DNA of 64,000 nucleotides from Oleiharenicola lentus. Its GTDB lineage: Bacteria; Verrucomicrobiota; Verrucomicrobiia; Opitutales; Opitutaceae. The translations under genes were made by a program, and so were the position numbers. This document shows, piece after piece, positions 5,570-63,220 of the stretch. The stretch spans positions 2,297,693 through 2,361,692 of the forward strand of contig NZ_SDHX01000001.1 of assembly GCF_004118375.1 (NCBI RefSeq), given 5' to 3'. The notes beneath the pieces were generated by a model. The model worked only from the letters and a program-made list of their open reading frames with translations. It did not search any database and was not told the origin of the DNA. Every line of letters begins with the position of its first letter. The stretch's first letter is position 1.

Positions 5570-5598
5570 TGTAGGGCGGGGTCACCGAACCCCGCCTT
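5570..5598. repeat. Single REP-like hairpin between tmk and holB
   Basis: TGTAGG leads into an 8-bp stem GGCGGGGT/ACCCCGCC (5575-5582 and 5589-5596) with loop CACCGA. The same TGTAGGGCGGGGT sequence recurs at 56199-56211, where the two stem arms are separated by a longer insert. Confidence 0.7.
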
Positions 5599-9562: not shown

Positions 9563-9598
9563 GCCTTGCTGACCTCTGACCTCTGTTCTCTGACTTCT
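9563..9598 (+). repeat. Seven-base-period array just upstream of mutS
   Basis: The sequence is a run of near-copies of CTGACCT: CTGACCT, CTGACCT, CTGTTCT, CTGACTT, CTG. It ends 5 bp before the mutS ATG. The same style of short-period array precedes several other genes here. No function is known. Confidence 0.6.
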
Positions 9599-9603
9599 GC
9601 CCC

Positions 9604-12174
9604 ATGTCTGAGAAGCTCACGCCGATGATGCAGCAGTATTTCGAGGTCAAGCGCGGCCTCCCGGCGAACACGCTCCTGCTCTTCCGGCTCGGCGATTTCT
9701 ACGAGATGTTCTTCGCCGACGCCGAGGTGGCCTCACGGATTCTCGGCATCACCCTGACCAAGCGCGGCGACACCCCGATGTGCGGCATACCGCACCACGC
9801 CGCGGACAACTACATTTCCAAGCTCCTCACCGCCGGCAAGAAGGTCGCGGTCTGCGACCAGGCCGAGCCCGCCAAGGCCGGCAAGCTCGTGAAGCGCCAG
9901 CTCACGCGCATCCTCTCCCCCGGCACCACGCTCTCCGCCAGCCAGCTCGACGCGGCCAAGAACCACTACCTCTGCGCGCTCACGCTCAACGACGCCGGCC
10001 TGCACGCCGCGTGGCTCGATCTCTCCACCGGCGAGTTCCGCCTGGCGTCCGATCCGAAGCCCGAAAACCTCCTGCCCGTGCTCACGGCCCTCGACCCGGC
10101 CGAACTCGTGCTGATCGAGGGCCAGTTGGAGAAATGGCAGGCCGCCCCGCACGAACAGCACGCCGTCCATGCGCTGCACCACTTCTGCTCGCCGCGCCTC
10201 TGCTCCGAACTGCCCGGCTACCATTTCGAGGTCACCGGCGGCGCGCGTACCGTGATGGAGGCGCTGGGCGTGCTGAACCTGCAGGGCTTCGGCCTCGCCA
10301 ACTCGCACCCCGCCCTCGGCGCCGCGGGCGCGGTGGTCCACTACGCCACCGAAAACCTCTGCGCCAAACCCGAGAACCTCCGCTCGCTCCAGGAATACCG
10401 CAGCACGCGCACCCTGCTCCTCGACCCGGCCACGCTGCGCAACCTCGAGATTTTCCAGGCCACGCGCGGCACGCGTGAAGCCTCGTTGCTCGGGGCCATC
10501 GAGCGCACGACGACCGCGGCCGGTTCCCGTCTGCTCGAACGCTGGCTCGCTGCGCCCGGCCTCGACCTGCTCGAAATCCAACGCCGTCAGGCCGCCGTCG
10601 GCGAGTTTGTCGCTCAACCCGGCGATCTCGCCGCGCTGCGCGAACTGCTCAACAAGGTCCGCGACATCCCGCGCATCCTCAGCCGGCTGCAGAACCGCCT
10701 GCGCAACCCGCGCGAGCTCGGCGGCGTGCGCGACACCCTCGCGCAGATCCCGCCCATTCTCGCCTGCCTCGACCTGCTCGACTCGCACCTCGTGGGGCAC
10801 CACGGCGGCGTGGTCTCGCACATTCGCGCCCGCATCACCGACCTGCCGGCCCTGCGCGACCTGTTGGCTCGAGGGCTGGCCGACGAACTCCCGAACGACC
10901 TACAGGACGGCAACTACATCCGCGCCGGTTACGACGCCGAGCTGGACCGCCTGCGCGGGCTCACCACCGACAACAAGTCGTGGCTCGCCGAGCTGGAGCG
11001 CAAGGAGCAGGAGCGCTCGGGCATCAAGAGCCTCAAGGTTCGCTACACCTCCGTCTTCGGTTACTACATCGAGGTCACCAAGGCCAACCTCGCCAGTGTG
11101 CCCGCCGACTACGTGCGCAAGCAGACCACCGCGAGCGGCGAACGCTTCGTCACCGAGGAACTCAAGCTGAAGGAGAAGGAGATTTTCTCCGCCGAGGAAA
11201 AGTCCCTCGCGCGCGAACTGGAGCTGTTCACCGCCCTGGTCGCCGCCGTGCTCGACGAATCCGTGTCCCTCGCCGCCACGGCAGACGCGCTCGCCGAGCT
11301 CGACGTGCTGGCCGGCTGGGCCGTGCTCGCGCGCGAATGGGATTACTGCCGCCCCGAACTCGACGAAGGGGATGTGCTCAGCATCACCGACGGCCGTCAC
11401 CCTGTCGTCGAGCAGATGATGAAGACCGAGCGCCTCGGTCTCGCCGGCAGCTACACTTTCGTCCCGAACGACACCGGTCTCTCCGCGACCGACTCGCAGA
11501 TCCAGCTCATCACCGGTCCCAACATGGCCGGCAAGTCCACCTACATCCGCCAGGTCGCGCTCATCACGCTGATGGCGCAGGTCGGCTGCTGGGTGCCGGC
11601 CAAGGCCTGCCGCGTCGGCCTCGTGGACCGCATCTTCTCCCGCGTCGGTGCGAGCGACGACCTCGCGCGCGGCAACTCGACCTTCATGGTCGAGATGAAC
11701 GAGACCGCCAACATCCTCAACAACACCACGGACCGCTCGCTGATCATCCTCGACGAGATCGGCCGCGGGACCTCGACCTACGACGGCCTCAGCATCGCCT
11801 GGGCGGTGGTCGAGCACCTGCACCGCGGGGCCGACCGCGGCCCGCGCACGCTCTTCGCCACGCATTACCAGGAGCTGACCCAGCTCGAGAAACACCTGCC
11901 CCGGCTCAAGAACTGGTCCGTCGCCGTGAAGGAGTGGAACGACGACATCGTCTTCGTGCGCCGCGTCGTCCCCGGCGCCGCCGACCGCAGCTACGGCATC
12001 CAGGTCGCCCGTCTTGCCGGCCTGCCGCTGCCCGTGATCGACCGCGCGAAGACCATCCTCGCCCAGCTCGAGTCCGACGACGTCACCGTCACCCTCCCCG
12101 CCGCCCCGCAATCAAAGCCGAAAAAGAAGATCAGCGTCGCCGCCGCGGATGACGCGCAGATGGATTTGTTGTGA
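9604..12174 (+). CDS. mutS: DNA mismatch repair protein MutS
   Basis: 856 residues, full length. The mismatch-recognition motif FYEMF is at 32-36, with the phenylalanine wedge and glutamate. Connector, core and clamp domains follow. The ATPase has Walker A GPNMAGKST at about 638-646, the ABC-like LARGNSTFMVEM segment and Walker B ILDEIGRGTSTYDG. The FATHYQELT histidine switch is also present. It recognises base mismatches and recruits MutL. The gene stands alone; no mutL is in the window. Confidence 0.98.
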   Translation: MSEKLTPMMQQYFEVKRGLPANTLLLFRLGDFYEMFFADAEVASRILGITLTKRGDTPMCGIPHHAADNYISKLLTAGKKVAVCDQAEPAKAGKLVKRQLTRILSPGTTLSASQLDAAKNHYLCALTLNDAGLHAAWLDLSTGEFRLASDPKPENLLPVLTALDPAELVLIEGQLEKWQAAPHEQHAVHALHHFCSPRLCSELPGYHFEVTGGARTVMEALGVLNLQGFGLANSHPALGAAGAVVHYATENLCAKPENLRSLQEYRSTRTLLLDPATLRNLEIFQATRGTREASLLGAIERTTTAAGSRLLERWLAAPGLDLLEIQRRQAAVGEFVAQPGDLAALRELLNKVRDIPRILSRLQNRLRNPRELGGVRDTLAQIPPILACLDLLDSHLVGHHGGVVSHIRARITDLPALRDLLARGLADELPNDLQDGNYIRAGYDAELDRLRGLTTDNKSWLAELERKEQERSGIKSLKVRYTSVFGYYIEVTKANLASVPADYVRKQTTASGERFVTEELKLKEKEIFSAEEKSLARELELFTALVAAVLDESVSLAATADALAELDVLAGWAVLAREWDYCRPELDEGDVLSITDGRHPVVEQMMKTERLGLAGSYTFVPNDTGLSATDSQIQLITGPNMAGKSTYIRQVALITLMAQVGCWVPAKACRVGLVDRIFSRVGASDDLARGNSTFMVEMNETANILNNTTDRSLIILDEIGRGTSTYDGLSIAWAVVEHLHRGADRGPRTLFATHYQELTQLEKHLPRLKNWSVAVKEWNDDIVFVRRVVPGAADRSYGIQVARLAGLPLPVIDRAKTILAQLESDDVTVTLPAAPQSKPKKKISVAAADDAQMDLL

Positions 12175-17146: not shown

Positions 17147-17182
17147 CATAAGCCCTGTAGGCCCTATAAGTCCTATAAGCCC
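17147..17182 (+). repeat. Nine-base-period array just upstream of hemL
   Basis: Four imperfect units follow one another: CATAAGCCC, TGTAGGCCC, TATAAGTCC, TATAAGCCC. The array ends 1 bp before the hemL ATG. It leaves no room for a normal Shine-Dalgarno sequence, so the array itself is the untranslated leader. Confidence 0.6.
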
Positions 17183-20390: not shown

Positions 20391-22646
20391 ATGTTCCTCC
20401 GCCCTAATCCCCCTTTCGTGTATTTCGTGTGTTTTGTGGTGACCTGCCTCGGCCTCCGCGCCGATCCCCTCACCAAGCAGCTGGACATCGACTTCGGGCG
20501 CGACGTCGCCAGCCGCAACCTCAAGGGCCTTGCCGCCCGATCCGACGGACGCCTCCTGCCCGGACCGGTTTTCACCGACCTCACCGGCCCGAAGATCGGC
20601 GACATCCTCTGGAACCTCGAGGCCCTCGGTAACAACCGCTTCCTCGTCGGCACCGGCCCCGACGGTAAGGTCCAGGAAATCACCTACAATCCCAAGGACT
20701 CCACTTACACCGTCCGCGAAGTCGCCGATGTGGACGAGACCCACGCCATCTCCCTGCTGCCCCTGCCCGACGGCGCGCTGCTCGTCGGCACCTCGCCAAC
20801 CGCTGCGCTCTATGTCGTGAAAGACGGCAAGACCACCGCTCGCGTTCCGCTGCCCGCCGACTCGGTCTTCGACCTGCTCGCTCTGCCCGACGGCACCGTG
20901 CTCGCCGCCACCGGCAATCCCGGCAAAATCTACAAGCTCGACCTCAAGAAACTCGCCGCCGCTGGCGTGATCGAGGGCAAGGTCGAGAACGACACGTTGC
21001 TCTCCGACCGCGGCATCACGCTCTTTGGCGAGATCCGCGACCGCAACGTCCGCCGCCTCGCCCGCCTGAGCGACGGCCGCATCGTTGCCGGCTCCTCGCC
21101 CAAGGGAAATCTCTACAGCTTCGCCGCGGCCGGCGGCGCCCCGCTCTTTCTCCAGGAAAACCGCGACGCCGAGGTCGTGGACCTGCTGCCCGACGCTGAA
21201 GGCGGTTTCCACGCCGCCCTCGTGTTCACGCCGGGCGACGCCCTGCGCCTCGCGGCCAAGCCGCCCGCCGAGACCAAGGACGACAGCCGTGCCCCCGATC
21301 GTGATACCACCAAGCCCGCCTTCGCCGGTCGCAGCACCGTGGTGCGTTTCCCGGCCGACGGGTTCCCCGAGAGCGTCATGGGCAAGCCCAACGTCTCGTT
21401 CTACCGGCTCGCCCGCCATGGCGATTGGCTGCTGCTGACCGCCGGCGAACAGGGCGACACCTTCGGCTACGATCCGGCGGCCCGCCGCTCATTGACGTTC
21501 GCCGGCAGCGCTTCGGCCCAGCTCAACGACCTGGCGGTTCTCGACGACGGCCGCTACCTGCTCCTGCGCAACAACGCCCCCGGCCTCGCGCTCATGGCCT
21601 TCAACGGCGCCGCCGAGCGCAGCCTCGAGACCAAGCGCCTCGACCTCGGCCAGGCCGGCGACCTCGGTGCCGTGCGTTTCCCGCGCCTGCGCGGACTCGA
21701 CGAATCGGCGCTCCAACTCGAGATCAGCACCAACTACGGCAACGACGAACTCGAGGGCTGGTCCCCGTGGACCAAGCTCACCCTGCGCGACGGCGGCTTC
21801 ACCGCCGACAGCCTGCGCGGCCGTTACGTGCGTTACCGGCTGACCCTGCCGGGCAAGGCGGCCGACTTCCAGCTGGACAAGGCCGTGCAGTATCACCGCC
21901 CGCAGAATCGCCGTCCCTCGCTGAGTGACTTCCGCATCTTCCCGCCAAATCAGGGCATCGTGCCCGCGCCCGAGCCTGCTCCGACCGTCGTCGCCACGCT
22001 CGGCCAGCTGCTGTTCCCGAGCCAGCGGGACAACAAGGACGAGCCTTCGCCCGGCCAGCGTCGCGGCGCCCTGCTCAACAGCCAGGTCATCCCGCAAACC
22101 GGCGTGCAGGTCGTCTATTGGAGCGTGAACGACCCCGACGGGGACGCCCTCGCCTACACCTTCTCGATCCGCCCGGACACCGCACAGGGCGACTGGACCG
22201 ACCTGACGGTCGGCACAACCGACAGCTTCGTGCAATTCGAGACTGGCGGCCTCGCCGAGGGACTTTACCTCACTCGCCTCAACGTCGCCGAACAAGCCCC
22301 GCGCCCCGCCGGTCAGCGCATCACCTATACCTTCGAGACCGACAGCCTGCTGGTGGATCGCACGCCCCCCGTCATCACCGGCACCCAGATCAGTCGTGCC
22401 GACGGCAAACTTTTGGTCACGATCACCGGCCGCGACGCGCTCGCCCTGCTCGAAGGCGCCGAGTTCGTGCTGAACAACGGCGTGCGCGACGTCGTCATGC
22501 ACCCCGTGGACGGCCTGCTCGACGCCCGCGAGGAATCCTTCCGCCTCGAACTCCCCGAAGCCCGCGCCGCCGGCGCCACCTCCGTCGAAATCATCCTCTA
22601 CGACCAGACCGGCAACGCGTCCTCTGCCCGCGTGCCGCTTAAATAG
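20391..22646 (+). CDS. Exported beta-propeller-like protein
   Basis: 751 residues from ATG 20391; an in-frame ATG at 20367 lies inside an inverted repeat and is less likely. The signal peptide is MFLRPNPPFVYFVCFVVTCLGLRA in two parts: a repeat-derived hydrophobic core (FVYFVCFVV) and a cleavage site before DPLT. The first 400 residues contain blade-like repeats such as NRFLVGTGPDGKVQEI, GALLVGTSPTAALYVV, GTVLAATGNPGKIYKL and GRIVAGSSPKGNLYSF. The C-terminal half has immunoglobulin-like features. The function is unknown, likely periplasmic or extracellular. Confidence 0.72.
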   Translation: MFLRPNPPFVYFVCFVVTCLGLRADPLTKQLDIDFGRDVASRNLKGLAARSDGRLLPGPVFTDLTGPKIGDILWNLEALGNNRFLVGTGPDGKVQEITYNPKDSTYTVREVADVDETHAISLLPLPDGALLVGTSPTAALYVVKDGKTTARVPLPADSVFDLLALPDGTVLAATGNPGKIYKLDLKKLAAAGVIEGKVENDTLLSDRGITLFGEIRDRNVRRLARLSDGRIVAGSSPKGNLYSFAAAGGAPLFLQENRDAEVVDLLPDAEGGFHAALVFTPGDALRLAAKPPAETKDDSRAPDRDTTKPAFAGRSTVVRFPADGFPESVMGKPNVSFYRLARHGDWLLLTAGEQGDTFGYDPAARRSLTFAGSASAQLNDLAVLDDGRYLLLRNNAPGLALMAFNGAAERSLETKRLDLGQAGDLGAVRFPRLRGLDESALQLEISTNYGNDELEGWSPWTKLTLRDGGFTADSLRGRYVRYRLTLPGKAADFQLDKAVQYHRPQNRRPSLSDFRIFPPNQGIVPAPEPAPTVVATLGQLLFPSQRDNKDEPSPGQRRGALLNSQVIPQTGVQVVYWSVNDPDGDALAYTFSIRPDTAQGDWTDLTVGTTDSFVQFETGGLAEGLYLTRLNVAEQAPRPAGQRITYTFETDSLLVDRTPPVITGTQISRADGKLLVTITGRDALALLEGAEFVLNNGVRDVVMHPVDGLLDAREESFRLELPEARAAGATSVEIILYDQTGNASSARVPLK
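20414..20442 (+). repeat. TTTCGTGT-type short-period arm inside the signal-peptide coding region
   Basis: The sequence consists of degenerate copies of TTTCGTGTG ending in TTTTGTGGT. It is the same arm found upstream of trpC and mazG (25503-25580) and around 52965-53041. Here it encodes the hydrophobic core of the beta-propeller protein's signal peptide. Confidence 0.7.
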
Positions 22647-25502: not shown

Positions 25503-25580
25503 AACCACGAAACACACGAAATACACCAAAAAAGCCCGGCATTTTCCTATTCCTTTCGTGTGTTTCGTGTGTTTCGTGGT
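25503..25580. repeat. Mirror-image TTTCGTGT short-period arms in the mazG/trpC divergent leader
   Basis: The left arm (25503-25527) is the reverse complement type AACCACGAAACACACGAAAT. The right arm (25552-25580) is TTTCGTG, TGTTTCGTG, TGTTTCGTGG. Each arm ends 10-12 bp before the start codon of the gene it faces, so both divergent genes receive the same leader sequence. Confidence 0.75.
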
Positions 25581-49591: not shown

Positions 49592-50782
49592 ATGACCGTC
49601 ACGCCCCAGGAAGATTTTGCCACGCGGCTCGATGCGAGTGTCCGGGATGGCACGCTCGCGCGGCTGACGCTCGGCAAGCCCCGTGGCGGCGACCCGACGC
49701 TGCAGAAGATCATCATCCGCCCCGTCACGCTGAAGGCCGGGCCGCACCTGTCGTTTGTCTATCGCCACGACACGCGCGACATCACCAAGAACCTGCCGCC
49801 CGCTGAGGCGGTGCGCGAAATCACGCGCCTGGTCGGCACCGAGTTTCACAGCGCGCACCTCGACACCACGCAGCAGGGCGTGCAGCTCGAGTTCAACAAG
49901 AAGGGCGAGCCTCGCCTGCACCTCGGGCGCGCCGCCGCGCCCTTCCCCACCGACACCGCCCACGACCGCGCGAAGCCCCGCCTGCTCACCGCGGAAGCGC
50001 AATCGTGGCTGCACGCTCTCGGCGTGACCAACGCCGCCGGGGTCGTGCGCGACGGCCTCGCCGACAAACACCGCCAGATCCACAAGTTCACGGAAATCCT
50101 GAGCCATCTCGTGGCCGAGGCTCCACTCACAGAGGATCGCCCGATCGAGATCACCGACATGGGCTGCGGCAAGGGCTACCTGACCTTTGCCACGCACGAT
50201 TATTTCGACCTCGTGCTGAAACGCTCCGCCCGCGTCTGCGGCGTCGAGGCCCGGCCCGAGCTCGTGACGCTGTGCAACAAAATCGCCCACGACACCGGCC
50301 GCCCGAAACTGTCCTTCGTCGGCGGCACGATCCAAAACGCCGAGCTCCCCGACCCTGACGTGCTCATCGCGCTCCACGCCTGCGACACCGCCACGGACGA
50401 CGCCCTCACTCGCGGCATCAAGGCGGGTGCGACGCTCATCGTCGTCTCTCCCTGCTGCCAGAAGGAGCTGCGTCCGCAGCTCAAGGCCGCGCCGGTGCTC
50501 GCGCCTGCGCTGCGTCACGGTATCTGGCAGGAGCGCCACGCCGAGTTCGTGACCGACGCCCTGCGCGCGCTGCTGCTCGAGTGGGCCGGTTACGACACCA
50601 AGGTCTTCGAGTTCATTTCCACCGAGCACACCGCCAAAAACCTGATGATCGCCGCCACCAAGCGCCCCGGCCTCGCCCGCGACGACGCAGCCGCCACGAA
50701 GATCCGCGAACTCGCCGCCTTTTACGGCATCACGAGCCAGTCCCTGGCGCGGCAGCTGGGTTTCAGTCTTAACCACGGATGA
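49592..50782 (+). CDS. Class I SAM-dependent methyltransferase (METTL25/RRNAD1-like)
   Basis: 396 residues from ATG 49592 (ATG 49580 also possible). The SAM-binding motif is ITDMGCGKGYLTFATHDYF at about 187-205. The post-I acidic residue lies in VCGVEARPELV, and motif IV is LIALHACDTATDD. This HACD-type motif IV and the following VVSPCCQKEL are typical of the family related to human METTL25/RRNAD1, which has unknown targets. Its C-terminus (LNHG) and stop codon are encoded by the start of a repeat. Confidence 0.8.
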   Translation: MTVTPQEDFATRLDASVRDGTLARLTLGKPRGGDPTLQKIIIRPVTLKAGPHLSFVYRHDTRDITKNLPPAEAVREITRLVGTEFHSAHLDTTQQGVQLEFNKKGEPRLHLGRAAAPFPTDTAHDRAKPRLLTAEAQSWLHALGVTNAAGVVRDGLADKHRQIHKFTEILSHLVAEAPLTEDRPIEITDMGCGKGYLTFATHDYFDLVLKRSARVCGVEARPELVTLCNKIAHDTGRPKLSFVGGTIQNAELPDPDVLIALHACDTATDDALTRGIKAGATLIVVSPCCQKELRPQLKAAPVLAPALRHGIWQERHAEFVTDALRALLLEWAGYDTKVFEFISTEHTAKNLMIAATKRPGLARDDAAATKIRELAAFYGITSQSLARQLGFSLNHG

Positions 50783-50957
50783 CACGGATGCTCACGGATA
50801 AAACCCGACCTCTCGCAATCAGTCATCCTGAGCCGTGCGAAGGATCCAAGGGAAAGGACGACCACCAAAACCCGCTTGGATCCTTCGCACGGCTCAGGAT
50901 GACGGCAGCGTGGGTTTGGCATCTCCATCCGTTTTCGTCCGTGAAATCCGTGGTGAA
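50770..50957. repeat. Nested inverted repeats (outer CACGGAT arms, inner perfect 29-bp arms)
   Basis: Outer arms with CACGGAT-type short-period sequence lie at about 50770-50800 and 50925-50957. Inside them is a perfect 29-bp inverted repeat (50822-50850 and 50875-50903) starting GTCATCCTGAGCC and containing GAAGGATCC. It looks like one element inserted into another. The outer left arm supplies the end of the upstream gene. Confidence 0.85.
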
Positions 50958-52061: not shown

Positions 52062-52294
52062 ACCCAAATATCTTAAACCACAGCCACCCGATTAGTGTTC
52101 ATGAGTGACCATTACAGCACATTCTTAAATCGTGTAGCCGCGCTTAAGCCGCAGGCGAAAGCGTGGTCAGGAGACAACCACTTTGTCGCTGCGCTCCAAA
52201 GCGGCTACACTTCAATTTAAACTGCCCTGGTGGTTTCACTCCCTCCAGTCCCTAGCCCTTGGTCCTTAGTCTCTGGTCCTTCCTCCCGAATCCC
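52062..52294. other. Intergenic region with one long palindrome and a short-period array
   Basis: No gene is supported. It holds the palindrome at 52129-52213 and, near 52247-52285, a run of short units (AGTCCCT, AGCCCTT, GGTCCTT, AGTCTCT, GGTCCTT) that ends 9 bp before the ABC ATPase start. Confidence 0.6.
52129..52213. repeat. GTGTAGC...GCTACAC palindromic element, copy 1
   Basis: About 80 bp with ends GTGTAGCCGC and GCGGCTACAC and an inner hairpin built on GCGTGGT/ACCAC. The same sequence recurs inverted at 53814-53888, as a shorter form at 54408-54479 and as a right half at 57079-57114. All four copies lie within 5 kb. Confidence 0.82.
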
Positions 52295-52957
<663 letters not shown>

Positions 52958-52964
52958 CGCTGAA

Positions 52965-53041
52965 TTAACCACGAAACACACGGAACACACGAAAATGAAC
53001 GCCTACAAACCTTTCGTGTATTCCGTGTGTTTCGTGGTTAC
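52965..53041. repeat. TTTCGTGT-type inverted repeat across a start codon
   Basis: The left arm (52965-52993) ends one base before the ATG of the next gene. The right arm (53012-53041) lies inside its coding region and encodes part of its signal peptide. Sequence units are ACCACGAAACACAC on the left and TTTCGTGTATTCCGTGTG on the right. Confidence 0.78.
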
Positions 53042-59597: not shown

Positions 59598-59630
59598 TCA
59601 TCCGTGTCTATCCGTGCCATCCGTGGTTCC
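59598..59630 (+). repeat. CATCCGTG short-period array upstream of lptD
   Basis: Units TTCATCCGTG, TCTATCCGTG, CCATCCGTGG follow each other. The array matches the outer right arm of the nested repeat at 50925-50957 and ends about 65 bp before the lptD ATG. Confidence 0.6.
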
Positions 59631-59694: not shown

Positions 59695-61788
59695 ATGCTT
59701 CCCGTCCGTGCCGTCCGTTCGCTTGCCGCCCTCGGGGCCGCCTTGCTCCTGTCCGTCCTCGCCGCTCAGGCGCAGACGGCCCAACCCGATCTCACGGGGA
59801 AGAACATGACCGCCGACATGGTGACCAAGGAGGCGGTCGTCACCGGCGATGCCCGCCTCGTGGCCGGCCCGCTCGTGCTGACCGCCGACGAGATCCGCTA
59901 CAATGCCACCGCCCGCACCGCCTCGGCCCGCGGCAACCTCGTGATCACCTCCGGCGCGCGCCGCCTCGTGGCCGACGAGGGCTCCTACTCCACCGCCACC
60001 GGGCGCATCACCGCGCGCAACCTCCGCGTCGGCCAGTTCCCGGTCTATGTCTCCGGCGAGACGGTCGAGGGCACCTTCGACGAACTGGTCTTCACCAACG
60101 CCACCGTCTTCTTCCGCGAAGACGCCGCCTACACGCCGTCGGTGACCGCCGCGAAGCTCGTTTACGCGAAGGACCGCATCGTCAGTGCCGACGGTCTCGG
60201 CCTCGGCCTGCACGGCGGCCATTTCCTGCGCCTGCCGAAGTTCGAGCATGCGCTCGACACGGATTTCATCTCCTACATCAGCGCGCACGGCGGCTACCGC
60301 GGCCGCCTCGGTGTGTTCGGCGAGTTTGGTTTCCACCTGCCCGTTGCGCCCGGCGTGAAACTCGGCGCCAACCTCGGCCTCTACTCCTCGCGCGGCGTGA
60401 TGGTCGGGCCCTCCGGCAGCTACCACCGCAGCGGCGACGACGGGCGCATCGACGGCTCGTTCTTCTCGGGCTACATCAATGACAGCGGCGACCGCCGCAC
60501 CGACATTTTCGGCCGGCCCGTGCCGCGCGACCGCTCGCTCTTCACCTGGGAGCACCGCCAGACCCACGGCGAACCCTTCACGCTCGACGGCACCTTCAGC
60601 TACTGGAGCGACTCCGAGGTTTACCGCGACTTCCGCAACAAGGAGTTCAACCGCGTGCAGCAGCCCGACTCGTTCCTCGAGGCCGCCTACACGCAGGACA
60701 ACTACGTGCTGAGCGCCTTCGCGCGCTTCCACCCCAACCGGTATCACCGCGTGCAGGAACGCCTGCCGGAGATCCGCTTCGACCTGCTGCCGGTCGCCCT
60801 GCCCCTCGGTATCTACGAGCGATTCAACGCGAGCGCCGCCGTGCTCCAGAGCGACGCCTTCGGCCCCGACCCGCGCCTGCGCACCAACCGCTTCGACGCC
60901 TACTACGGCCTCGCCCGTCCGTGGGCGCCGACGCCGTGGTTCACGTTCACACCGGTCGCGGGCGGACGTGTCACACACTACACCGACGCCCTCGGCGGCA
61001 AAAACGACTACACGCGCACGATCGGCGAGGTCGGGTTCGATGCCCGCCTGCTCGCGAGCGGAACCTTCGACTACAGGAACGAGATCTGGGAGATCGACGG
61101 CCTGCGCCACCTCGTCGAGCCAAAGCTCTCCTACCGCTACGCGCCGAAGGCCGACCGCGGAAAAACCTACATCCCGCCGATCGACCGCCGTGCCTTCTCC
61201 ACCTATCTCCAGCCGCTCTCCATCGGCGACTCGCGGTTCATCGACGACCTGTCCGCCCTCAACACCGCGCGCCTCTCGCTCGTCAACACGCTCCAGACCC
61301 GCGACGCCAGATACGGTTCACGCAAACTCGCCGCCCTGACTATCGCCGCCGACTACGCCTTTGATCCCGCGCCCGGTCTGAAAAACCTGGGTGATTTCTA
61401 CACCGAGCTCTCGCTCACGCCCGCGCCGTGGCTGCGGTTCGACGTGTTTCACCGCCACGACCTGCACGCGCCGCGGCTGCAGGAGATCAACACCGGCGTG
61501 ACGCTCATTGACCAGGAGTGGTGGTCGCTTCGCCTCTCGACGCACTTCCTGCGCGGCCAATACGACGAATACCTCCTCGAATACCGCCGCCGCCTTAACG
61601 AGTCCTTCGACGTCGCCGCCCTCTGGCGCTACGACGCCCGCAACAGTCGCATGAACGAGCAGAGCTACGCCGTGTGGCAGCGCCTTGGCCAGACCTGGGC
61701 CATGAAATACGAAATCTCCTTTTTCGACGGCCCCCGCCGCGAAAGCGACTTCTCGCTCAACATCGAGGTCGACCTGCTGAAGTTCTAA
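59695..61788 (+). CDS. lptD: LPS-assembly protein LptD-like outer-membrane barrel
   Basis: 697 residues from ATG 59695. The signal peptide (LAALGAALLLSVLAAQAQ) is followed by an OstA/LptA-like domain: VTGDARLVAGPLVLTADEIRYN..GNLVITSGARRLVADEGSY. A beta-barrel of many alternating strands fills about 220-697 and ends in F, as expected for a barrel that uses the BAM machinery. LptD inserts LPS into the outer leaflet with LptE. It has no adjacent lpt gene. The sequence is only distantly like Proteobacterial LptD, so a related OstA-type barrel is the alternative. Confidence 0.82.
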   Translation: MLPVRAVRSLAALGAALLLSVLAAQAQTAQPDLTGKNMTADMVTKEAVVTGDARLVAGPLVLTADEIRYNATARTASARGNLVITSGARRLVADEGSYSTATGRITARNLRVGQFPVYVSGETVEGTFDELVFTNATVFFREDAAYTPSVTAAKLVYAKDRIVSADGLGLGLHGGHFLRLPKFEHALDTDFISYISAHGGYRGRLGVFGEFGFHLPVAPGVKLGANLGLYSSRGVMVGPSGSYHRSGDDGRIDGSFFSGYINDSGDRRTDIFGRPVPRDRSLFTWEHRQTHGEPFTLDGTFSYWSDSEVYRDFRNKEFNRVQQPDSFLEAAYTQDNYVLSAFARFHPNRYHRVQERLPEIRFDLLPVALPLGIYERFNASAAVLQSDAFGPDPRLRTNRFDAYYGLARPWAPTPWFTFTPVAGGRVTHYTDALGGKNDYTRTIGEVGFDARLLASGTFDYRNEIWEIDGLRHLVEPKLSYRYAPKADRGKTYIPPIDRRAFSTYLQPLSIGDSRFIDDLSALNTARLSLVNTLQTRDARYGSRKLAALTIAADYAFDPAPGLKNLGDFYTELSLTPAPWLRFDVFHRHDLHAPRLQEINTGVTLIDQEWWSLRLSTHFLRGQYDEYLLEYRRRLNESFDVAALWRYDARNSRMNEQSYAVWQRLGQTWAMKYEISFFDGPRRESDFSLNIEVDLLKF

Positions 61789-61791
61789 AAC

Positions 61792-61888
61792 GAAACCTGA
61801 AACTTGAGACCTGAAACCTGAGGATAGGAATCGGGCCTCGGCGTCCGCAGTCCATTTTTCAGGTTTCAGGTCTCAAGTTTCAGGTTTC
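61792..61888. repeat. Perfect 30-bp inverted repeat (GAAACCTGAAACTTG arms) before the rsmB-like gene
   Basis: The left arm (61792-61821) and right arm (61859-61888) are perfect reverse complements over 30 bp, each built from 7- to 8-base units such as CCTGAAA. The right arm ends 6 bp before the ATG. A 28/30 copy of the right arm is found inside the same gene at 62344-62373. Confidence 0.9.
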
Positions 61889-61894
61889 TCCCTC

Positions 61895-63220
61895 ATGAAT
61901 CCTTCCATCGCCGCCAACCAGCAGCGCCTCTTCCTCGCCTTTGTGGCCGAGCTGCGGCCGCACGTGCGGCGGGACAGTGCGCTGCCGCGGCGCATCAAGG
62001 AACTCCTCGCCCGCCAGCGCGCCATCGGCTCCCGCGACCGCAAGCTTTACCGCGAACTGATCTACACCTGGCTGCGCTTCCTGCCGTGGACGGACCCGCT
62101 GCTCGACCAAGATCCTGCATTGGCCGGCAAGGTCATCGCCTGGCTCGCCCCCGAGCTGAAAGCCACGTCGCACTACCGCGCCGCCCTCTGCGCCGACTGG
62201 CCGGTCGCGCCGGCTTCGCTGGCCGAAAAGGCCGCGATGCTGACGGCACGGGTAGCTGGAGCGCAGCCTGCGGACGCGCCTTTTGCCGTCCCCAGGGCAG
62301 AGCCAACCCGTCTGGAGGCCGGGTTCCAGCCAGATCCCTCTTCTCAGGTTTCAGGTCTCAGGATTCAGGTTTCCGATCTTCTCCCCGCCTGGTTCGCCGA
62401 GCACTGCCCTGCCGCCTTCCAGCCGCCCCACCTCGACGCCATCAACTCGCGCGCCAACGTCTGGGTGCGCCTCCAGTGCAACGACCGGAACATCGTTCTC
62501 GATGAGTTCCGCGCCAAGCAGTGGACCTGGGAAACCGCCGCTGATTTTCCTGACGCGCTCTGCCTGCCGCCCAATGCCGAGGTGGCCAATACCGACGCCT
62601 ACCGCCGCGGCTTCGTCGAGATCCAGGACCTCGGCTCGCAGCTCGTGCTCGCCACCGCGCCCATCCCGCCCGGCGGGCGCTGGCTCGATGCCTGCGCGGG
62701 CGCTGGCGGCAAGACCCTCCAACTCGCCCGCCTGCTCAGTGACGTCGGCCACGTTGACGCCACCGACATCCGTCCCGAGATCCTCGAGGAGCTCCGCGAC
62801 CGCGCCCAGCGCGCCCGCCTGACCAATGTTCGTATTACGAACATTCCCGAGGCCGCCTACGACGGCATCCTCGTGGACGCTCCGTGCTCCGGCTCGGGCA
62901 CCTGGCGCCGCCAGCCACACCTCAAGTGGTATGTGAAGCCCGAGACGATCTCTTCGTTTGCGAAGACCCAGCTGGCCATCCTCACCGCCCACGCCCCACG
63001 TGTGAAACCCGGCGGCGTCCTGATCTACGCCACCTGTTCGCTGAGCCATCACGAAAACCACGACGTCGTCGCCGCGTTTCTGCAGGCCCACCCGCAGTTC
63101 AAAGCCGTTCCCGCCGCCGATACCCATGGCGGCACCTTCGACGGCCTCGGCACCACCTTGCTCCCCGGCACACGCAACACCGACGGCTTCTACGTGGCAA
63201 CTTTGCGTGCCTCGGCCTGA
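61895..63220 (+). CDS. RsmB/NOP-family RNA cytosine methyltransferase with in-frame repeat insertion
   Basis: 441 residues. The N-terminal NusB-like domain (about 1-100) includes RRIKELLARQRAIGSRDRKLYRELIYTWLR in parts. The methyltransferase domain has SAM motif LDACAGAGGKTLQLA, the catalytic DAPCSGSGTWRR and YATCSLSHHEN cysteine motifs. It likely makes m5C in rRNA. Between the two domains are about 50 residues of unusual composition (VAGAQPADAPFAV..EAGFQPDPSSQVSGLRIQVS). Part of these is encoded by a repeat identical in 28 of 30 bases to the one just upstream of the gene. Confidence 0.88.
   Translation: MNPSIAANQQRLFLAFVAELRPHVRRDSALPRRIKELLARQRAIGSRDRKLYRELIYTWLRFLPWTDPLLDQDPALAGKVIAWLAPELKATSHYRAALCADWPVAPASLAEKAAMLTARVAGAQPADAPFAVPRAEPTRLEAGFQPDPSSQVSGLRIQVSDLLPAWFAEHCPAAFQPPHLDAINSRANVWVRLQCNDRNIVLDEFRAKQWTWETAADFPDALCLPPNAEVANTDAYRRGFVEIQDLGSQLVLATAPIPPGGRWLDACAGAGGKTLQLARLLSDVGHVDATDIRPEILEELRDRAQRARLTNVRITNIPEAAYDGILVDAPCSGSGTWRRQPHLKWYVKPETISSFAKTQLAILTAHAPRVKPGGVLIYATCSLSHHENHDVVAAFLQAHPQFKAVPAADTHGGTFDGLGTTLLPGTRNTDGFYVATLRASA
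62344..62373 (+). repeat. TCAGGTTTCAGG-type repeat inside the rsmB-like gene
   Basis: Thirty bases that match the upstream arm at 61859-61888 except at two positions. It is translated in frame as QVSGLRIQVS. The gene frame is uninterrupted. Confidence 0.85.

Follow-up and report, generated by a model that had tools for sequence, protein, structure and literature searches.

Short-period repeat arrays at gene boundaries of Oleiharenicola lentus as very probable arms of minimal selfish elements encoding S23p or GxxExxY proteins

The window, a stretch of 64,000 nucleotides from Oleiharenicola lentus (contig NZ_SDHX01000001.1, positions 2,297,693 to 2,361,692), carried short-period repeat arrays beside several of its genes, and all features are given here on the + strand. 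The mutS gene (9604..12174), a neighbouring host gene that was matched in 19 of 21 congeneric genomes, was preceded at 9569..9599 by 4.4 units of CTGACCT (TRF score 41). This array reads CTGACCTCTGACCTCTGTTCTCTGACTTCTG, has five CTG unit starts and is separated from the ATG at 9604 by CCCC. A left arm was not found for it. The hemL leader held a single array of the CCTATAAG type with a period of approximately 9 bp (17147..17179). An earlier note on this DNA had described the 7-base-period array just before mutS and further arrays before hemL, trpC, an ABC ATPase gene, an rsmB-like gene and mazG; all were recovered with the exception of the mazG array, which was not located. Standing alone, the mutS and hemL arrays folded no better than shuffled sequences, and assigning such single arrays to a class is impossible by sequence alone.

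Paired arrays showed a different behaviour, as the three pairs that were folded gave z values of -8.5 to -12.6. A hairpin of the 9-bp class (CACGAAACA) had its left arm at 25504..25530 and its right arm at 25554..25580 (z -8.5), before a gene identified as trpC (PF00218 IGPS). Another 9-bp class hairpin (CACGAAACA/CACGGAACA) was formed by arms at 52966..52994 and 53012..53040 (z -9.6). For the 7-bp class, a left arm of GAAACCT units immediately 3' of a stop codon (61792..61821) formed a stem with a right arm before the rsmB-like gene (61859..61888; z -12.6), and genome G001 had a CACAGAG hairpin at the same site. A CACGGAT-type pair had its left arm at 50771..50801, at the end of gene 49592-50782, and its right arm at 50926..50954, with a second hairpin of the GTCATCCTGAGC type nested inside. 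Other arrays were found at 20414..20440 (right-arm array TTTCGTGTATTTCGTGTGTTTTGTGGT adjoining a gene start, with a GTCATTCTGAGC-type hairpin just upstream from 20302), at 52250..52281 (7-bp class, before the ABC ATPase gene 52295-52957) and at 59599..59628 (CATCCGTG, class of approximately 9 bp, upstream of gene 59695-61788). The rsmB-like coding sequence itself contained a single TTTCAGG array (62344..62373) within a linker. Both the mutS and the rsmB copy were gene-less, and the 9-bp copies of the window consisted of arms only.

A total of 1.6 Mb of the same chromosome was scanned with TRF against 1249 genes from a home-made finder, with predicted gene starts, and produced 111 intergenic arrays. 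Of these, 42 ended within 20 bp of a start codon compared to 13.4±3.4 for random placement in noncoding DNA, an approximate 3-fold enrichment, and 34 lay within 20 bp of a stop codon compared to 11.6±3.3; each observed count was reached in 0 of 200 placements. The enrichment near start codons that the earlier note had expected from a genome-wide count therefore holds, but its leader-specific placement was not borne out since stop codons were equally enriched, which indicates that the arrays mark gene boundaries in general. Within their own intergenic region, 39 of 80 arrays had an inverted partner against one in shuffled sequence, and about half of all arrays had no partner. The single architecture with differing sequences that had been proposed, i.e., degenerate units of 7-9 bp at the start codon and often with an inverted partner, was thus recovered. 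By eye, the units were mostly A- or purine-rich when read outward from the gene. One near-perfect array, (GACCACA)10, lay between divergent genes at chromosome G000:C1:338087-338159 and was far longer than the others.

The same site was found to carry different arrays in different species. The mutS leader of 18 congeners had arrays of CTGACCT, CACGGAG/CACAGAG, CGCCAAG/GCGCAAAG, CACGAAG or GCGAGTA, mostly as a hairpin ending just 5' of the ATG, and a few species had none. At least eight array families were found in the rsmB-like leader. Intergenic regions common to the window genome and G001 numbered 48, some with differing families at the same place, and one of them held a decayed orthologue of the 25504-25580 hairpin with a conserved loop. 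Between species, unrelated families replaced one another, beyond a mere change in repeat number, which indicates that the sites were reoccupied. The hemL boundary had a GxxExxY element in some congeners and lacked it in others. In sister species, one boundary was occupied by complete yet different GxxExxY elements, where an older arm looks to have left its outer end behind. The search for empty sites with a target-site duplication gave none, as the 48 regions common with G001 were too diverged and the sister genomes gave shared, replaced or missing loci.

In congeners, arrays of this kind were found inverted at both ends of an insertion of approximately 0.45 kb that carries one small gene. At the hemL boundary of several congeners, an extra ORF was present after the NAD synthase gene, between ACCACTAATCCACACTAATGGGCCACTAAT and its inverted partner, and was identified as a GxxExxY protein (PF13366, PDDEXK_3). 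The only GxxExxY gene of the window genome was bracketed by GCCCACGGAACACACGGAATACACGGAA, and the same arms recurred in CACGGAA hairpins without a gene at other places of the chromosome. Apart from this one gene, the genome has several 9-bp families that are gene-less and to which no gene corresponds. Inverted arms (score ≥14, flanks taken with exact ORF coordinates) were found at 27 of 28 GxxExxY loci of the genus compared to 9 of 527 control genes. A GxxExxY alignment scan of species genomes produced 80 loci from many phyla, selected by similarity to the genus proteins, and 67 of these had arms against 0 of 80 shuffled. The arms had a mode of three units (20/27 in the genus, 38/62 in the many-phylum sample) spaced 9-10 bp apart, while random segments had mostly one or two. 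The 9-bp class thus consists of a PF13366/TIGR04256 ORF between inverted arms of approximately three units of 9-10 bp. Protein similarity also predicted arm similarity (Mantel r 0.42, host ancestry left in; best of 2000 permutations 0.16).

The GxxExxY protein is predicted to be a PD-(D/E)XK nuclease. It has the invariant residues D70, E80, K82 and Q94 (D..ExK motif), and the confident structural model (pLDDT 92.5) had its best match with the Cas4-family nuclease 4ic1 (Foldseek E 2e-4, Z 9.7, rmsd 4.5 Å over 100 residues) and a weaker match with lambda exonuclease, in a VIA-align listing that does not cover every nuclease family.

Regulatory leaders were considered as another reading of the arrays, in which 5' UTR control by protein binding, translation control or repeat-number phase variation would have been selected gene by gene. 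The excess of arrays close to start codons (within 20 bp) and the keeping of some array before mutS and rsmB in many species agree with it, and so do the cyanobacterial STRRs, 7-bp repeats of unknown function for which transcript stability or translational coupling is proposed in PMC2670836. However, the equal enrichment at stop codons led to the rejection of leader-specific regulation as the main cause, and the degenerate units, the change of sequence family at the same gene, the lack of an array in some congeners, the array inside a coding linker and the bracketing of a foreign ORF all argue in the same direction. Overall, regulatory leaders are an unlikely explanation, and the arrays should not be taken for them.

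Loci of the 23S_rRNA_IVP family (PF05635) showed the same arm-gene-arm layout as GxxExxY. Inverted arms were found at 19 of 24 IVP loci of the genus against the same 9 of 527 control genes, with about a fifth of the loci lacking arms at a score of ≥14. The mode was five units (10/19) and the spacing was 7 bp in 60 of 69 steps. Complete elements of the 7-bp class encode the PF05635/TIGR02436 protein, S23p, which is a four-helix bundle and a pentamer in crystals, with matches to 2gsc and 2rld (five chains each), and was described as a homopentamer (PMC4990558). Nothing in this fold points to catalysis, and elements of this class would therefore depend on a second factor. A phylum search counted by genome gave PF05635 matches in 218 of 288 genomes. 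Heptamer-like arms were also found at S23p genes on plasmids of cyanobacteria, Gemmatimonadota and Azospirillum and on three viral-collection contigs. In Nostoc, Calothrix, Geminocystis and others, the S23p genes had heptamer arms such as (TAGGGAG)n, and in Aulosira laxa (L366) the gene was flanked by CTGACTC/CTGACTT, units much like those of the mutS leader array.

Two further placements of these genes were observed. S23p elements lay between cas genes (cas6-cas4, cas10-cmr3) in loci L354, L356 and L365, on plasmids of Anabaena sp. 90, Pseudanabaena and Picosynechococcus, and the 23S rRNA IVP is named in a legend on CRISPR-linked genes in PMC10910872. The element may have inserted beside such genes by chance, and an S23p copy in a cas operon is no ground for calling S23p CRISPR-linked. 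In addition, IVP and GxxExxY elements occurred together in one sugar-nucleotide operon (L194 1436-1866 and L173, G018 contig C68), where the rfbA-like gene, as read by hand, had its first codons within the arm.

An S23p element with 7-bp arms was found inside a 23S rRNA gene (Rfam RF02541) on an Azospirillum lipoferum plasmid (L364). The empty 23S copy of the same organism reads GCGGAT-GTGATCTTATGATCAC-GTGGTAGC, and in the filled copy the element replaces the hairpin tip exactly and without duplication. This insertion ties the 7-bp elements to the known intervening sequences (IVS) of rRNA. The examined copies of the window genome lay between protein genes and outside rRNA genes, the rRNA location being that of Azospirillum L364 only; the 7-bp elements described here are therefore of the same type as S23p/rRNA IVS without being an rRNA IVS. 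With regard to orientation, the element ORF was co-directional with the upstream gene in 42 of 42 cases in this genus. On annotated cyanobacterial plasmids, 9 of 12 S23p ORFs ran with a neighbour and 3 of 12 ran against both, so the sense orientation has exceptions.

Replication slippage with template switching, by which local tandem units would be mirrored through quasi-palindrome correction with no mobile element, was also considered. The two arms of a single hairpin have unit-specific variants exactly in common, as such a process would produce, and slippage has been proposed for heptamers in PMC4692102. Nevertheless, the same unit order recurred at distant loci (window 61859, chromosome 209121 and 216354), two gene families were bracketed, each with its own period, and the same words accompanied related proteins across phyla, which leaves slippage very improbable.

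The REP unit is defined by a GTAG head and an imperfect palindrome. REPIN-like elements moved in trans by RAYT or another Y1 transposase would account for intergenic inverted pairs separated by short loops, in a genome that has other REP-like hairpins (TGTAGGGCGGGG and TGTAGGGTCGG), but there is very little chance of this as a REP-type palindrome and a GTAG head were both absent from the arm sequences, and what the arms enclose is a GxxExxY or S23p gene instead of a transposase. As a separate observation, REP-like palindromes and inverted pairs of TGTAGGGCGGGG, TGTAGGGTCGG and GTGGGCGGCCAGC were dispersed between genes (G000:C1:1856, 300821, 1107459, 18947 and others; window 5571-5596).

The reading that is preferred here, and held to be very probable, is that the arrays represent the inverted ends (arms) of very small selfish elements, or what remains of such elements. 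The anatomy of the elements, their association with the two genes, the breadth of their occurrence, the correlation between protein and arms, the reoccupation of sites and the rRNA insertion were shown. A complete element measures approximately 0.4-0.6 kb, with a left arm, one ORF of approximately 110-135 codons and an inverted right arm, and belongs to one of two classes; an S23p ORF with approximately five units of 7 bp per arm or a GxxExxY ORF with approximately three units of 9-10 bp. Hairpins without a gene and single arms, mutS included, would be derivatives of gene-bearing elements, and the mutS array is probably the surviving right arm of a 7-bp class element. No remnants of element genes were seen by eye in the loops of gene-less hairpins and the loops were unrelated to each other, hence the origin of gene-less copies by internal deletion is only inferred.

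The elements sit almost only between genes. They are presumed to be mobile and would land at gene boundaries, where harm is small. Reoccupied boundaries and the exact replacement of an rRNA hairpin tip suggest a hairpin-for-hairpin exchange, by which an element would replace existing hairpins, older elements included. As the ORF always ran with the upstream gene in the genus, transcription of the host gene probably provides for its expression. By analogy with rRNA IVS, the arms would pair on the host transcript into a long stem, a possible substrate of RNase III. The ORF protein may bind its own arms, perhaps with one unit per subunit. The GxxExxY protein could perform the cutting, while S23p has no evident active site and would need another enzyme. 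A correspondence between the five units and the five subunits of S23p is offered as a suggestion. A wider and much more tentative reading, which is rather doubtful at present, would have two unrelated small proteins building the same minimal mobile element in many phyla, with one unit per ring subunit (five of 7 bp for pentameric S23p and three of 9 bp for a trimeric GxxExxY protein), spreading by hairpin exchange at gene boundaries and rRNA helix tips and leaving most heptamer and many 9-bp intergenic repeats as footprints.

Comparison with known systems showed that the 7-bp class is of a type known already. The IVS of 23S rRNA encode S23p and were described as selfish elements excised by RNase III, among them the 428 nt IVS of Coxiella (PMC4990558). 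They share with the present elements PF05635, a length of approximately 0.4-0.5 kb, a terminal complementary stem and, in one case, 7-bp arms in a 23S gene. The present elements differ in lying between protein genes, several per genome, with arms of 7-bp units and common gene-less derivatives. The cyanobacterial STRRs and the GGGAATC repeats of Xanthomonas and GGGGA(C/T)T repeats of Nostoc are likewise intergenic 7-bp units, mostly about four, near ORF ends, with the G-rich strand away from the gene and in inverted pairs. Within the available parts of PMC2670836 and PMC4692102, they are described without a known function, discussed as G-quadruplexes or slippage and not linked with S23p. The unexplained heptamer repeats of Nostoc and Xanthomonas probably belong to these elements; the heptamer-S23p link was seen on cyanobacterial plasmids and is extended by inference to Xanthomonas. 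On this view, the puzzling intergenic repeats of cyanobacteria and Xanthomonas would share one origin, and PF05635 and PF13366, two small proteins that are very common but whose role is unknown, would be placed in a genetic setting.

The statement of the earlier note that no described class fits all arrays is thus not supported. The 7-bp class is covered by S23p/IVP elements and heptamer repeats, and the 9-bp class belongs to GxxExxY elements, which are proposed here and of which no description was found in the open-access literature searched. GxxExxY is mentioned in PMC8934634 in no connection with repeats, and the open-access literature gave nothing useful on these repeat words or on short tandem repeats of Verrucomicrobia. 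MITEs resemble the present elements in that short copies, non-coding and with inverted ends, are scattered over intergenic regions. The present elements differ in having ends of direct-repeat arrays and a gene-bearing partner without a known transposase, and no target-site duplication was found. REP/REPIN sequences with RAYT share the inverted pairs of short units between genes, but their unit structure and associated genes are unlike those found here.

Other repeats were also observed. Hairpins of the GTCATTCTGAGCGAAGCGAAGAATCC type with stems of approximately 28 bp form another dispersed family (window 20302- and 50822-; G000:C1:308467, 868694), and one of these is nested in the CACGGAT-type pair 50771-50954. 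The linker (62261-62373) of the rsmB-like gene (61895-63220) varied strongly in length among congeners and had TTTCAGG arrays or GC-rich repeats that are read as protein. Finally, the palindrome AATGTTCGTATTACGAACATT occurred in pairs approximately 20-60 bp apart, often between divergent genes (G000:C1:800640, 877618, 1357420, 848694, 895836), and these pairs may be operators.
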